10,564 bases of DNA from the NCBI GenBank assembly GCA_031284275.1, contig JAITAD010000060.1, forward strand, positions 1-10,564, written 5' to 3'. Position 1 is the first letter of the stretch; each line of letters begins with the position of its first letter. The notes below the pieces were generated by a model, which saw only the letters and a program-made list of their open reading frames with translations, was not told the origin of the DNA and searched no databases. Below are positions 3,784-10,564 of the stretch, piece by piece. The stretch comes from Tannerellaceae bacterium (GTDB lineage Bacteria; Bacteroidota; Bacteroidia; Bacteroidales; Tannerellaceae). The position numbers were made by a program, and so were the translations under genes.

Positions 3784-3811
3784 AACTCTACACTCTTACG
3801 TTTTCACTTCG

Positions 3812-3895
3812 TACGCAGGATGAGATTTGAACTCACACACCGTAACCGGCACTACCCCCTCAAAGTAGCGTGTCTACCAATTCCACCACCTGCGC
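3812..3895 (-). tRNA. tRNA-Leu (anticodon GAG)
   Basis: On the minus strand the acceptor arms GCGCAGG (5') and CCTGCGT (3') pair over seven positions with one G-U, followed by discriminator A at 3812. The anticodon stem CTACT/GGTAG closes the loop TTGAGGG with GAG at positions 34-36, reading CUC and CUU codons. A long variable arm (class II, as expected for Leu) and a T-arm with loop TTCAAAT are present. CCA is not encoded. It lies 14 bases after the CAG isoacceptor and 28 before rpmB. Confidence 0.95.
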
Positions 3896-3909
3896 ATTTT
3901 CCCTGACAG

Positions 3910-3991
3910 TGCCCGGAACAGGACTCGAACCTGCACGGCGCGAACCACTCGCACCTGAAACGAGCGCGTCTACCAATTCCGCCACCCGGGC
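3910..3991 (-). tRNA. tRNA-Leu (anticodon CAG)
   Basis: The acceptor arms GCCCGGG and TCCGGGC pair (one G-U), with discriminator A at 3910. The anticodon stem CTCGT/GCGAG closes loop TTCAGGT with anticodon CAG, which reads CUG. The long variable arm and the T-arm GCAGG-TTCGAGT-CCTGT are typical of class II tRNA-Leu. CCA is not encoded. It is the first gene of the operon, about 50 bases after the likely transcription start. Confidence 0.95.
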
Positions 3992-6194: not shown

Positions 6195-7445
6195 TTAGAA
6201 AGATAATCGTCCCAAGGAGGTGATACAGCCGGAAATGACCTCTAAACCTTTGGTGGCCTGTGCGGTTGAAATATCAATGGTATAAACATGAGGGTACTCG
6301 TCGGTAACGGTAATGCCGAAAGAGATACTTGATCCGTCTTCTGCAATATAAGGGAGGCGCGAAACGTGTACCAAATGTTCCGGCTCCGGCATTCCGGTGA
6401 CCCACGTAAAAGATTCCGTCACCACGTCAACGATGGCGAACTTGAGGTCTTTGCCATCCCCGTATTGAGGGGTCTGCTGCCTATCGGCGTGGAGGGTCAA
6501 CAAGAACTTCGTTCCACCGAGATAAAAAGCCTTATGCACGTGGTAACCACCCGATGTCTCCTGAATATTGAAGAAGTAATCTTTGTCGAACTCACTTGTC
6601 CCTTTCTTGATACGCAGTACGGCAGAAGGTTTGGTAGAGGGTACAATCCCCTCTGCCGCATGTCCTATCGGAGCGCAGGAGAAAGTGTAGACATCGCCAT
6701 TCTCGACTTGGGTTACTCCACTAAGGGCGAAATAATGACCGATGTAAGAGGTTCGGCCGTCCCGAATCACCTTTTCCAAAGTCATATCGGGGTAGGAAAA
6801 CACAGCTATCCAAACGCTATCTGTCAAATCGGTACGAAAGTAGTTGTCTTTGATACACATGTAGGGAGCATATACCTTGTCTCCTACCTGAAATGCTCCC
6901 GTGAAATGTGCCAGCTCGCCGTTTCCCGCCAGGGCTGCTATATCTACATACCGGGTGTCGACGATGCGTGGATTAACGGCATCTACCCGATAAATACCGG
7001 CATTGACGTCAGTAAAGGAACGGGGACATTTGATCAAAATCAAATCCTCTCCGCAGGCGCCGAAAACCTGTACGGTCTCCGTTTGCAGATTGGAGAGGTA
7101 AGCCAGCATCCCATTCTCTCCCAAGCCGTAGGTCGTTACCGCACCGGGATTCCCTTGCCCATAGAGGAAACTGAAGACCTTGTTTTTGTGAAATGCATAG
7201 TATCGGTAGCCATCCTGTTCCCATCCTGCTCCTACCGTTGTAATGCTTCCCTCGCTCAAACTACCGGTTTGCAACAAATAATCTGCCCCTTCGGCAAAAG
7301 TTCCTTCGGGAGTCGCCACCACTACATATTGGAAATTGCCTTCCACCGTCGGTTCGGGAACATCGTTCTCCTTGTCACACGACGCAAACAACAATACACT
7401 CCCCATAGAGAGCGCCCAACCTTGAATACCTGCAAATTTTGACAT
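6195..7445 (-). CDS. DUF4374 surface lipoprotein, XusB-like siderophore-binding protein
   Basis: This 416-residue protein has a lipoprotein signal: hydrophobic ALSMGSVLLFAS, then Cys23 (Phe at -3 is slightly off the usual lipobox). The acidic stretch DKEND directly after the Cys resembles the Bacteroidetes signal for display on the cell surface. The body (about 35-416) is repetitive beta-strand sequence typical of DUF4374, which is predicted or known to fold as a beta-propeller. The closest characterised relative I recall is XusB of Bacteroides thetaiotaomicron, which binds ferric enterobactin at the surface and passes it to the TonB receptor XusA. The gene starts 30 bases after the TonB receptor in the same direction, with an A-rich stretch before the ATG, so the two form an operon. 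The ligand is inferred, not seen. No XusC-type PepSY gene follows. Confidence 0.8.
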   Translation of the reverse strand: MSKFAGIQGWALSMGSVLLFASCDKENDVPEPTVEGNFQYVVVATPEGTFAEGADYLLQTGSLSEGSITTVGAGWEQDGYRYYAFHKNKVFSFLYGQGNPGAVTTYGLGENGMLAYLSNLQTETVQVFGACGEDLILIKCPRSFTDVNAGIYRVDAVNPRIVDTRYVDIAALAGNGELAHFTGAFQVGDKVYAPYMCIKDNYFRTDLTDSVWIAVFSYPDMTLEKVIRDGRTSYIGHYFALSGVTQVENGDVYTFSCAPIGHAAEGIVPSTKPSAVLRIKKGTSEFDKDYFFNIQETSGGYHVHKAFYLGGTKFLLTLHADRQQTPQYGDGKDLKFAIVDVVTESFTWVTGMPEPEHLVHVSRLPYIAEDGSSISFGITVTDEYPHVYTIDISTAQATKGLEVISGCITSLGRLSF

Positions 7446-7475: not shown

Positions 7476-9890
7476 TTACTTCTTGCTGATGAAATATCTG
7501 AACTTGACAGAAAAACTGCGTCCCGGCTTCTGGAGGCTGAAATTGTCGTAAAGATTGGCGTCGGTGATGTTTCGACACTCTGCCGAGAGGTTATAACGGC
7601 CATCCCCGAGGGCATAAGTAATGTTGATGTCCTGCGAAAGCTGGGTAGGAATCGTGTATTTGCTACCGCTTGCCCCTTGACTGGGCCAACGTAAATAGTA
7701 TTCATGGACGAAGAGTAAATTATATCCGATACTCAAATTGTTTTGCCGTCCACCAACGCCGGGGAAGAACAGGCAGATATCGCCGTTACCAAAGAGGTAC
7801 GGCATGTTCGGGATACGGTCTCGATAGACTGAACTTTCGCGTGTCGCTCCCTCTTCATAGCGCGTGTTGTTACGCAGGTTCTGGTAGGTCAGGTTTATCC
7901 CCGCAGTCAAGAGGCGGCGATAAGAATAACGTACCTCTCCGTTGTATCCAATGTTAATTACGTCTCGCTGATTGGTCATTATCTGATGCGTGCCATTGGT
8001 GTTTTGTTGCGGACGGATGTAATCTACGGCGTTACGGATGATGAGGTTGGCATCGAATATCAACGCATGTGTCCGGTTGACAGTGATATTGTAATTCGCT
8101 CCCAGATTCACGTTATCGCTGCTCTCGGGACGCAATTCGCTGTTGCCCAACAACGTGTTGGCGTCCCCGAAAAGTTCTTCGTTCTCAGGAAGACGGTAAC
8201 TCTTCTCATAGGAACATTTCAGTTGTAAGTCTTCCATCGGGAAACAGGCGCCGGCTATGCCATACCCAAGCCGGTCGAAACGGTTCTTCAACTCCGGATA
8301 GATCGTTCCTGTGGAGGTGTAGTATATCGTTGTGAAAGATGAGGTCGATTGCATGAAATATTTGACAAAAGCCGAAATATTCCAACGCTCATTCCAGTCG
8401 AACTTGTAGCCCAGTCCCGCCACGTTCTTGACCGTCTTACGTGGAAGTTTCGCTTCCTCGTTGTCCGGATCCAGAGCATCATTCCCTTTACGGTCGAAGG
8501 CGTTGAAAACGTCGTTCAGCATAACCGAATGGCGTTCATCTATCTTGTAGGCTACGTTGGCCGTCATCAAACCGTTGTGGTTGTTGTACCTGTATAAGGT
8601 AGGCTCCAACTCGCCTCCGGGAGCCGGTTTCTCTTTGAAATCTCCCAACCAATTGTAATGTCGGGCGACGGTATCTACCGTCTGTTCAAAACCCAGATTA
8701 TAGTTCCCGGTGACATTCACGTCAAGACCCTTCGTAAAAAGCCCTTTCTTTACGTAACGGATGGAGGGCATGACAATATTTCCTCTCCGGAACCGAGCGC
8801 CGAAAACTCTTTCCATACGTGCTGCCGTCTGGATGTCCGCCCGATTCTGCCCCAAGGTAGCGCCAAAAAGCAGCTTATCGGCATATTTTTTACCTGTCAC
8901 TCCAAAGTTGACAATAAGCGTTTCATTGTGATATCTGTCATGAAAACGACGTACGCGGCGATGTTCATACAAGCCGGTGGCAAGGTCTGCTACGTCTACA
9001 TCAACCCAATAATTGTTATCTGAATAGTTTTGAAAAAGGTTCAGTTGTGCAGTGAAGCCATTTGTCGAGGTAAATCCTGCATTGATACAGGACTTATGGG
9101 TGTTGAACGAACCCAAAGAATATGAAACATCCAAGAAACTTTTCTGCCGGATTCCGGTGACGATGTTTACCGCTCCGCCCAAAGCATCAGCCCCGAGAGA
9201 TATCGGAACTACTCCTTTGTACACTTCAATGCGTTCCGCCAGATTGATGGGGATATTGTTGATTTGGAACGAAGAGCCGAAATTTTCCATCGGTACCCCA
9301 TCGATAAAGAACTTCACCTGCCGGCCGGTGAAGCCATTTAGCGAGAAGTTGAACGCTGATCCGGTGCCTCCACTTTCTCGTGTCCGCACACCGGAGACAC
9401 GGTCAAGGGCATGGCTCAGATCCATCGTCGTATTGTGCAGTTGCTTCACCTCCACAGCCACGACATTGTATGCCAACTCATTGATTTTCTTGGCCGCCGA
9501 CTTCCCGGTAATCAATACTTCATTGAGTGTCAATGCATCTTCCTCCATCTCAATTCTGTAGTAGGTCTTCGTTGGAGGGTAAGAGATGGTGATTTCCCGT
9601 GTCTTGTAACCTACCAGAGAAACCGTCAGCTTCAGAGAACTTTTTCTTGTCGGGAAAGGTAACTCGAATCTTCCCGCCTCGTCAGTCATCGTCCCCAACG
9701 TCGTCCCCGCCCAATACACAGAAGCCATATCCAACGCTACCCCGCCGGATGTGACAAGACCCTTCAAACCATCCTCCTGCGGATTGATACTGCCCCGGAC
9801 GTATAGTGGGAAAAAGGTCTGAAGAAACAGCAGAACAGCCAAATAATATGCCGATTTCAATCTGCGATTTTTAATCTGTGAACATCTCAT
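7476..9890 (-). CDS. TonB-dependent outer-membrane receptor, XusA-like
   Basis: From the ATG at 9890 the receptor has 804 residues. The parts are: signal peptide (about 1-33, core YYLAVLLFLQTFFPLY); carboxypeptidase-like regulatory domain (about 41-115, with GRFELPFP and SLVGYKTREI); a TonB-box-like segment LNEVLITGKS (122-131); plug domain (about 135-247) with LSHALDRVSGV, FFIDGVPMENFG and ERIEVYKGVVPISLGADALGGAVNIVT split over 219-245; and a 22-strand beta barrel to the end, closing with FSVKFRYF. A longer frame opens at 9947, but that ATG lies in the -33 region of the promoter, so residue 20 of it is taken as the start. Such receptors import iron-chelates or other large ligands using TonB energy. 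The DUF4374 partner and divergent feoAB point to ferric siderophore, though heme is possible. Confidence 0.9.
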   Translation of the reverse strand: MRCSQIKNRRLKSAYYLAVLLFLQTFFPLYVRGSINPQEDGLKGLVTSGGVALDMASVYWAGTTLGTMTDEAGRFELPFPTRKSSLKLTVSLVGYKTREITISYPPTKTYYRIEMEEDALTLNEVLITGKSAAKKINELAYNVVAVEVKQLHNTTMDLSHALDRVSGVRTRESGGTGSAFNFSLNGFTGRQVKFFIDGVPMENFGSSFQINNIPINLAERIEVYKGVVPISLGADALGGAVNIVTGIRQKSFLDVSYSLGSFNTHKSCINAGFTSTNGFTAQLNLFQNYSDNNYWVDVDVADLATGLYEHRRVRRFHDRYHNETLIVNFGVTGKKYADKLLFGATLGQNRADIQTAARMERVFGARFRRGNIVMPSIRYVKKGLFTKGLDVNVTGNYNLGFEQTVDTVARHYNWLGDFKEKPAPGGELEPTLYRYNNHNGLMTANVAYKIDERHSVMLNDVFNAFDRKGNDALDPDNEEAKLPRKTVKNVAGLGYKFDWNERWNISAFVKYFMQSTSSFTTIYYTSTGTIYPELKNRFDRLGYGIAGACFPMEDLQLKCSYEKSYRLPENEELFGDANTLLGNSELRPESSDNVNLGANYNITVNRTHALIFDANLIIRNAVDYIRPQQNTNGTHQIMTNQRDVINIGYNGEVRYSYRRLLTAGINLTYQNLRNNTRYEEGATRESSVYRDRIPNMPYLFGNGDICLFFPGVGGRQNNLSIGYNLLFVHEYYLRWPSQGASGSKYTIPTQLSQDINITYALGDGRYNLSAECRNITDANLYDNFSLQKPGRSFSVKFRYFISKK

Positions 9891-9915
9891 TGTTTCGTCT
9901 ACATGGGAAACACTA

Positions 9916-9947
9916 CAAAGGTAACCTGCCGGAATTGTATCAAACAA
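9916..9947 (-). promoter_or_regulatory. Promoter of the receptor/lipoprotein operon
   Basis: On the minus strand the -7 box TACCTTTG (9923-9916) follows TTG (9947-9945) after 21 bases; TTTG at 9944-9941 is an alternative with 17. Transcription would start near 9910, giving a leader of about 20 bases before the ATG at 9890. The repeat site at 9947-9964 abuts the -33 element. Confidence 0.6.
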
Positions 9948-9964
9948 TCGCTATTAGTAGGTAT
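9947..9964 (+). promoter_or_regulatory. Candidate operator site 1 (AGTAGGTAT repeat)
   Basis: This carries an exact AGTAGGTAT (9956-9964) and matches the 18-base consensus of sites 2 and 3 at 14 positions; the left half is degenerate (ATCGC for ATACC). It touches the -33 element of the receptor promoter; read on the minus strand it ends in GAT followed directly by TG of the -33 TTG. Confidence 0.5.
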
Positions 9965-9975
9965 TTTTTTCGCTT

Positions 9976-9984
9976 CTACCTACT
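9976..9984 (-). promoter_or_regulatory. Inverted half-site AGTAGGTAG
   Basis: The minus strand reads AGTAGGTAG, eight of nine bases as in the repeated motif, facing site 1 across an 11-base spacer. The rest of the 18-base consensus is absent, so it would be a half-site only. Confidence 0.3.
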
Positions 9985-9999
9985 CTTTTTCCCTTATTC

Positions 10000-10017
10000 A
10001 TACCTAAAAGTAGGTAT
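10000..10017 (+). promoter_or_regulatory. Candidate operator site 2 (palindrome)
   Basis: ATACCTAAAAGTAGGTAT is a near-palindrome with arms ATACCTA and TAGGTAT around AAAG. It lies in neither core promoter, midway between sites 1 and 3 (53 and 55 bases), so all three would fall on about the same face of the helix. Confidence 0.55.
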
Positions 10018-10054
10018 ATGTGGGGATGGAGAAAGAGCGGGTAGGAGGTGATAA

Positions 10055-10072
10055 ATACCGAGAAGTAGGTAT
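10055..10072 (+). promoter_or_regulatory. Candidate operator site 3, overlapping the feoAB -33 element
   Basis: ATACCGAGAAGTAGGTAT is identical to site 2 at 16 of 18 positions and has the same ATACC-N8-GGTAT symmetry (AATACC and GGTATT if extended by a base each side). Its last T is the first base of the feoAB -33 TTG, so a bound protein would block RNA polymerase. Confidence 0.55.
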
Positions 10073-10102
10073 TGAACGGGCGGAAAGGGGAACGTACTTT
10101 TG
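10072..10102 (+). promoter_or_regulatory. Promoter of feoAB
   Basis: TTG (10072-10074), 20 bases, then TACTTTTG (10095-10102) fits the Bacteroidetes consensus. The -7 box ends 19 bases before the feoAB ATG. Transcription would start near 10108. Confidence 0.65.
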
Positions 10103-10121
10103 CGGGCAAAAAGAAAGTGGT

Positions 10122-10564
10122 ATGAAGCTGGCGGCGTTGGCGACGGGCGAAAAGGGGGTGGTGGTGAAGGTGGCAGGCCGGGGGGCGTTCCGCAAACGGA
10201 TTGTGGAAATGGGGTTTGTGCGGGGAAAAGAGGTGGAGGTCGTTCGCAATGCGCCGCTCAAAGATCCGATTCATTACCGTATTATGGGTTATGATGTGTC
10301 GTTGCGGCGTAGCGAGGCGGCACTCATCGAAGTGGTGCAGGTGTCGCAGGGGGGAATACGGCCGGAGGGGGCGACGGACAGCACTGTCGTAGAAACGGAG
10401 GATTGGGGTGCGGTAGCTCTCCGTGAGGGGCGTACCATCAATGTAGCGTTAGTGGGTAACCCGAATTGTGGGAAGACGTCGCTGTTCAATTGGGCATCAG
10501 GGTTACATGAACACACGGGAAATTACAGCGGGGTGACGGTAGACGCCAAGGAGGGAGTAGTACA
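10122..10564 (+). CDS. feoB: FeoA-FeoB fusion, ferrous iron transporter (5' part, cut by window edge)
   Basis: The first 147 codons are present with no stop. Residues 1-72 are a FeoA domain, an SH3-like fold (MKLAALATGEKG, MGFVRGKEV, GYDVSLRRSEAALIEV). A linker of about 30 residues leads to the GTPase domain of FeoB, with the G1 loop GNPNCGKTS at 112-120 and the G2 region NYSGVTVD at 134-141 (Thr139). The remaining G domain and the FeoB membrane channel lie beyond the window. FeoB brings Fe2+ across the inner membrane using GTP. FeoA is normally a separate small protein that assists it; the fusion is typical of Bacteroidales. The gene is divergent from the siderophore receptor operon, with three repeated operator-like sites in the shared upstream region. 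Confidence 0.95.
   Translation, partial: MKLAALATGEKGVVVKVAGRGAFRKRIVEMGFVRGKEVEVVRNAPLKDPIHYRIMGYDVSLRRSEAALIEVVQVSQGGIRPEGATDSTVVETEDWGAVALREGRTINVALVGNPNCGKTSLFNWASGLHEHTGNYSGVTVDAKEGVV

Follow-up and report, generated by a model that had tools for sequence, protein, structure and literature searches.

Genes and Operator Sites of the Locus

The window, that is, the whole stretch of 10,564 nucleotides analyzed here, contains two iron-uptake operons separated by a 231-base gap (9891-10121). On one side of the gap lies the minus-strand operon of a TonB-dependent receptor and a DUF4374 protein, and on the other the plus-strand feoA-feoB fusion (Table 1). The best NCBIfam model for the receptor is the siderophore receptor MxcH, at 445 bits, which is below the cut-off of 925 for that model. 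The minus strand of the window also carries two tRNA-Leu genes (3811-3991) and a large protein with a trypsin-like domain (112-2343).

An operator with the 7-4-7 palindromic core ATACCTA-N4-TAGGTAT is present in three copies within the gap. The original prediction had listed AGTAGGTA three times, at 9956, 10009, and 10064, and all three copies were recovered, on the plus strand; a fourth, a lone half-site on the minus strand, was missing from that earlier list. The description of the repeats also holds in its other details. Relative to the reference copy (site 2), the 18-mers of sites 3 and 1 are 89% and 78% identical, the start-to-start spacing of the three 18-mers is 53 and 55, and the outer sites 1 and 3 adjoin the -33 elements of the two divergent promoters. 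The exact pattern ATACC-N8-GGTAT is matched by two of the three sites, against an arithmetic expectation of about 0.01 occurrences per 10.6 kb. Allowing two mismatches brings no enrichment within the window (five found; shuffle mean 3.5; at least five in 55 of 200 shuffles), and consequently site 1 rests on position and comparison rather than on its score. The GCGAT variant of its promoter-proximal half (GCGATTG) was seen by eye at six other promoters (L190, L192, L194, L199, L202, and L253).

Table 1. Coordinates of the genes, promoter elements, operator sites, and candidate small RNA genes
Feature	Position	Strand	Remarks
TonB-dependent receptor	7476..9890	-	start taken at ATG 9890
DUF4374 protein, second gene of receptor operon	6195..7445	-	
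feoA-feoB fusion, cut by window end	10122..10564	+	
-7 element TACCTTTG, receptor promoter	9916..9923	-	read from sequence; 23 nt beyond site 1
-33 element TTTG, receptor promoter	9941..9944	-	read from sequence; site 1 abuts -33 region
Operator site 1 (receptor promoter)	9947..9964	-	12/14; ATACCTA-CTAA-TAGCGAT; promoter-proximal half is the GCGAT variant
Extra lone half-site AGTAGGTA	9977..9984	-	fourth copy of the motif
Operator site 2	10000..10017	.	14/14 to ATACCTA-N4-TAGGTAT
Operator site 3 (feoAB promoter)	10055..10072	+	13/14; kept at feoAB in relatives
-33 element ATTG, feoAB promoter	10071..10074	+	read from sequence; overlaps end of site 3
-7 element TACTTTTG, feoAB promoter	10095..10102	+	read from sequence; 22 nt beyond site 3
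Candidate small RNA gene(s)	L096:4786-4955; L190:4266-4483; L194:3901-4369		operator upstream, covarying hairpins
Candidate small RNA gene(s)	L192:11849-12311; L199:3234-3719	-	operator upstream, covarying hairpins

Conservation Upstream of feoAB

A feoAB match is present in 115 of the 123 genomes that represent the Parabacteroides family. Among named relatives, the FeoAB of Parabacteroides sp. PFB2-10 is closest (70% identity across the 147 residues in the window), and the nearest other relative in the family is found in genome G042 (78%). Seventy upstream regions from the family were compared, comprising the 30 best hits and 40 selected by hand, among them both distant genomes and genomes lacking strong Fur hits. 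The operator is present at 12/14 or better in 53 of these regions, and the remaining 17 lack any 12/14 site; the shuffle background for such a site is 5/3500 (mononucleotide) and 4/3500 (dinucleotide). The promoters compared are related by descent. Of the 53 sites, 49 are separated from the -7 box by 21-23 nt when a relaxed -7 pattern is used and the match nearest to 22 is taken, and 43 are so by the first strict TANNTTTG, for which seven have no match.

The genome of G042 is, by its translated genes, syntenic with the window, with nitronate monooxygenase directly beside feoAB and no receptor operon between them (L186:8533-9835). A perfect site stands beside feoAB; 65 bp on, a second site retains only its right half intact, 15 nt away from the -7 box. 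In the window, the distance corresponding to these 65 bp is 55. The receptor operon may either have entered the window locus with or before site 1 or have been lost in G042. Because G042 keeps two sites without the receptor operon, site 2 need not have arisen for the shared loop that had been proposed for it.

Other Operator-Bearing Genes

With one mismatch allowed, genome-wide searches returned 29 sites against 4 for a reversed-pattern control in six family genomes, and 32 against 7 in twelve other genomes, some of the sites falling within genes. Bacteroides faecis has no site genome-wide at this setting, and with two mismatches the count drops below the control (69 versus 121 in five genomes). 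The exact composite TAGGTATTG-N20/21-TANNTTTGC was matched 73 times, in 52 of the 393 Bacteroidales genomes searched, with 1 match for the control, and is absent from the other 341; the gap is N20 in 67 matches and N21 in 6. Thirty composite loci, some of them near-identical copies, were inspected. By a fixed rule, a reading frame lies behind the promoter in 27; six are feoAB (Pfam), and one of the three loci without a qualifying frame has a FeoB-associated Cys-rich protein that is too short for the rule. The genes at the remaining loci encode TetR, PadR, DUF1858/DUF2249, or PhoU-like proteins, or have no Pfam match. The distal half of the operator is matched at 5/7 or better in only 13 of the 30.

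The operator also precedes genes for flavodoxin, a TonB receptor, and pyruvate formate-lyase (PFL), as well as porin-imelysin operons. In Bacteroides mediterraneensis (L253), it is followed by a TonB receptor and a DUF4374 gene (Pfam), the same pair as in the window. In Prevotella (L262), it is followed by a TonB receptor plus a cut gene, DUF4374-like by eye, without a Pfam hit, and in Bacteroides congonensis (L258) by a porin-like gene and imelysin, at a spacing of 22 nt. Conservation of the sites upstream of orthologous genes, the check suggested with the original prediction, is found for feoAB in 53/70 family loci, and in B. mediterraneensis a site also precedes a receptor-DUF4374 operon. 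The claim of one operator type common to both iron operons is supported. Other genes behind the operator include one for a hemerythrin-domain protein, with a LuxR-type regulator next in line (L251:3533-4919), a TetR gene (L414 and L417, Pfam), and a methyltransferase-like gene (L244 and L247, by eye).

The sites are very likely the conserved operator of a Bacteroidales iron regulon. It is most improbable that the repeats are a product of chance or a mere extended promoter element that no regulator reads. Two-mismatch matches at or under background would agree with such an origin, as would the overlap of the final bases of the site with the -33 element; however, the 18-bp palindrome is kept at feoAB and found again at further iron genes, and an operator half in Prevotella stands far from -33. 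No description of the motif was met in the available parts of the open-licence PMC literature, searched by topic rather than by motif letters, and the words iron, Fur, and MerR are absent from the accessible text of PMC12596196.

A Candidate Small RNA

In several genomes, the operator promoter drives no reading frame but an apparent transcript of ~120-170 nt that ends in a terminator-like hairpin, a candidate small RNA that occurs in tandem copies in some genomes. In an alignment of eight copies, 19 of 26 pairs show changes on both sides. Shuffled alignments gave a mean of 9.3 such pairs, with 0/500 as high, and slid partners gave 4-7. The RNA has no Rfam match, and in five loci Rfam gave only a tRNA. 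A covariance model finds the candidate in 63 of the 123 family genomes, with 68 matches listed. All 30 model matches with upstream DNA show TAGGTATTG; 28 reach 11/14 or better over the whole site, and 27 of these 28 also have the 21-23 nt spacing. The small RNA was not found in G042.

Spacing to the -7 Box and Mode of Action

A broader set of 109 feoAB upstream regions (80 named, 28 from the family, and the window) was used to compare spacings, a qualifying site being defined as 11/14 or an intact right half. Such a site occurs in 64 regions, and its distance to the -7 box is 21-22 nt in 29, 36-38 nt in 7, and 48-49 nt in 22; the rest lie at 42, 77, 80, and 113 nt (one each) or have no -7 match (two). 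Within the named set, spacings of 30-65 (n = 30; 7 at 37-38 and 23 at 48-49) share one 10.5-bp helix phase, with a vector length of 0.94, many of these loci being related by descent. The reversed-heptamer spacing control overlapped the operator motif itself and is uninformative. At other genes, the spacing is 47 and 59 (PFL promoters), 53 with a second variant site at 22 (porin-imelysin promoters), and 54, outside the helical series (enolase promoters); off-class spacings of 42 and 53-56 also occur. In several relatives, the sole site found precedes the -7 box by 37, 47-49, or 59 nt.

The original prediction held that one regulator represses both iron-uptake operons. This is not supported by the sole sites 37-59 nt upstream in several relatives, a distance that appears far for simple promoter occlusion, or by the 22-nt class, which, under the -7/-33 convention, would be centered near -42, a classical activator position. 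Sites at such distances, stepped by helical turns, agree with an activator in contact with RNA polymerase. The operator more probably serves a face-of-helix-dependent activator than a repressor; at the 22-nt class, action by a repressor would still be feasible. In Prevotella feoAB promoters (L016, L019, L024, L030, and L032), a palindrome of the TTGCAAC-GTTGCAA type was seen by eye between the operator and the -7 box.

Fur, DtxR, and Rrf2 Proteins

The Fur box of Bacteroidetes, ATTTAGAATTATTCTAAAT, was derived in Riemerella anatipestifer, where it was also gel-shifted (PMC5609570, available in part). Its best match in the window gap is 10/16, and no match of 14/16 or better occurs on the strand read at any of the 70 family feoAB loci. 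The original prediction could not match the motif with confidence to a Fur box, and the operator is indeed likely not one. Among the 80 named feoAB loci, the first 150 nt upstream contain a 12/14 site or the promoter-proximal half TAGGKAW in 42 and a Fur box at 13/16 or better in 15, with both elements in one. All 15 Fur-box loci come from records of Bacteroides, Mediterranea, or Caecibacteroides. In Bacteroides congonensis, B. mediterraneensis, and Caecibacteroides, feoAB is preceded by a Fur box and the ATACCTA operator stands at other genes, and the presence of both in one genome argues for two regulators per cell. Across the records, feoAB appears rewired, with a Fur box in those of Bacteroides, Mediterranea, and Caecibacteroides and the operator in many of Prevotella and Parabacteroides.

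FUR-family proteins were detected in 17/17 genomes and in 117 of the 123 family genomes. They were sorted by eye into three classes, and many of the genomes are drafts, so that absences are soft. Eight genomes whose feoAB upstream region bears the operator at 12/14 or better differ in their hits: one class A protein in G042 and G054, one class C protein in G068, G079, and G085, and none in G060, G062, and G088. With classes assigned by eye and absences soft, no single Fur class appears to be shared by the operator-bearing drafts examined. Co-occurrence first hinted at class C as the regulator, and this candidate was rejected on finding no class C hit in operator-bearing B. congonensis (G016) or G042. 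Fur autoregulation was likewise set aside; the only approximate site, located before a class A Fur gene (L208), falls on the -7 box of that gene. Class C is a divergent Fur-family class with an unusual recognition helix (L212-L224 and L368-L370). For Porphyromonas Fur, a lack of binding to the E. coli Fur box has been reported (PMC6613475, available in part).

A Fur-family protein with altered DNA specificity could nevertheless bind the sites in the presence of iron and repress, which we regard as unlikely. Fur commonly controls feoAB and TonB receptors, its family is nearly ubiquitous in these genomes, and at a spacing of 22 the site overlaps the -33 element, where repressor action is also feasible. 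This explanation is weakened by the absence of the Bacteroidetes Fur box from the window gap, by genomes in which that box stands at feoAB and the operator elsewhere, by the apparent lack of a Fur class shared among the operator-bearing genomes examined, and by the several promoters whose sites lie only 37-59 nt upstream of -7.

Two further families were rejected as regulators. DtxR_C (PF02742, the DtxR metal-binding and dimerization domain) was found in 0/17 genomes, with the control detected in 11/14; the original prediction, too, could not match the motif with confidence to a DtxR/IdeR site. Rrf2 was above the cut-off in 0/17 genomes, with weak partial hits in five.

A MerR-Like Candidate

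A MerR-like protein of ~118 residues is matched in 118 of the 123 family genomes, once per genome except that G045 has an additional weak hit and G036 a fragment. A protein of the same size class is present in 13/13 genomes, three of them from the Parabacteroides family, and most of these 13 hold other, mainly weaker MerR_1 hits. It has MliR-type features, namely a length of ~110-120 aa, no cysteine, and a short N-terminal extension; it is cysteine-free in 12 of the 13 as called, and in L266 only if the upstream start is unused. Drafts being among the genomes and absences soft, G062 and G084 have the operator without a MerR-like hit, and G037 and G038 show the reverse. Because the protein occurs in nearly all genomes, its presence hardly discriminates between regulators. 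Typical MerR proteins bind between -35 and -10, a point against this candidate. By elimination and by target overlap, the chances that the MliR-like protein binds the operator are about even.

The operator may instead be bound by another regulator, such as a member of the CRP/FNR family or a different HTH protein, acting as an activator or a repressor. We consider this rather unlikely. The regulator search covered DtxR_C, FUR, Rrf2, and MerR_1 only, and class I/II-type positions are typical of CRP/FNR activators. On the other hand, no regulator gene consistently adjoins the operator, TetR and PadR genes being downstream of a few sites and a LuxR-type gene behind one.

Proposed Mechanism and Comparison with Known Systems

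We give even chances to the proposal that a non-Fur activator, with the MliR-like protein as lead candidate, runs an iron-acquisition regulon through these operators. The operator, its position, and its targets are read from sequence; activation, the iron response, and the identity of the regulator we infer. A dimeric non-Fur protein would recognize ATACCTA-N4-TAGGTAT and, at both window promoters, would sit directly upstream of the -33 element and touch it, with its center near -42. The bound protein would most likely contact RNA polymerase and turn on feoAB and the receptor-DUF4374 operon on iron need. Site 2 would provide an additional binding site about five helical turns away. The lead candidate for this protein is the MerR-like protein resembling MliR of Bizionia. 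A more comprehensive proposal, which is tentative and falls somewhat short of even chances, is that iron limitation in Bacteroidales is answered by a regulon under a cysteine-free MerR-like activator of class I/II type at helically phased sites, rather than under Fur. Such a regulon would cover the uptake of ferrous iron and of siderophores, iron-sparing enzymes, and a RyhB-like small RNA, and feoAB would have moved to Fur in Bacteroides. Iron control is poorly understood in Bacteroidales, which are abundant gut and oral anaerobes, and an operator with a defined promoter position, together with a candidate regulator and a small RNA, would allow order-wide annotation of the iron regulon.

Three known systems can be compared with the one proposed here. 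The Bacteroidetes Fur box, known from Riemerella and from Bacteroides feoAB, is likewise a palindrome upstream of iron-uptake genes, and at Bacteroides feoAB it also stands near the -33 element. It differs in being a 19-bp element, ATTTAGAA-N3-TTCTAAAT, to which the window gap offers at best 10/16 (PMC5609570, available in part). The second system is the MliR regulon of Bizionia argentinensis, which also belongs to a member of the Bacteroidetes and in which MliR is an apparent activator of iron-uptake genes (PMC9478572, available in part). Its targets overlap those of the operator, including a TonB receptor, an imelysin-like protein, and a FeoB-associated protein. MliR and the present candidate are both small MerR-like proteins without cysteines, likened by size, HTH family, and lack of cysteine. 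In its available part, the account of MliR gives no DNA site, promoter position, or small RNA, unlike the present case, and its authors leave direct versus indirect control undecided (PMC9478572).

The third comparison concerns iron small RNAs of the RyhB/PrrF type. These are, like the candidate described here, non-coding RNAs within an iron regulon and form a tandem pair in some genomes. The present candidate differs from them in having no Rfam match and in a promoter that carries the operator ATACCTA-N4-TAGGTAT.
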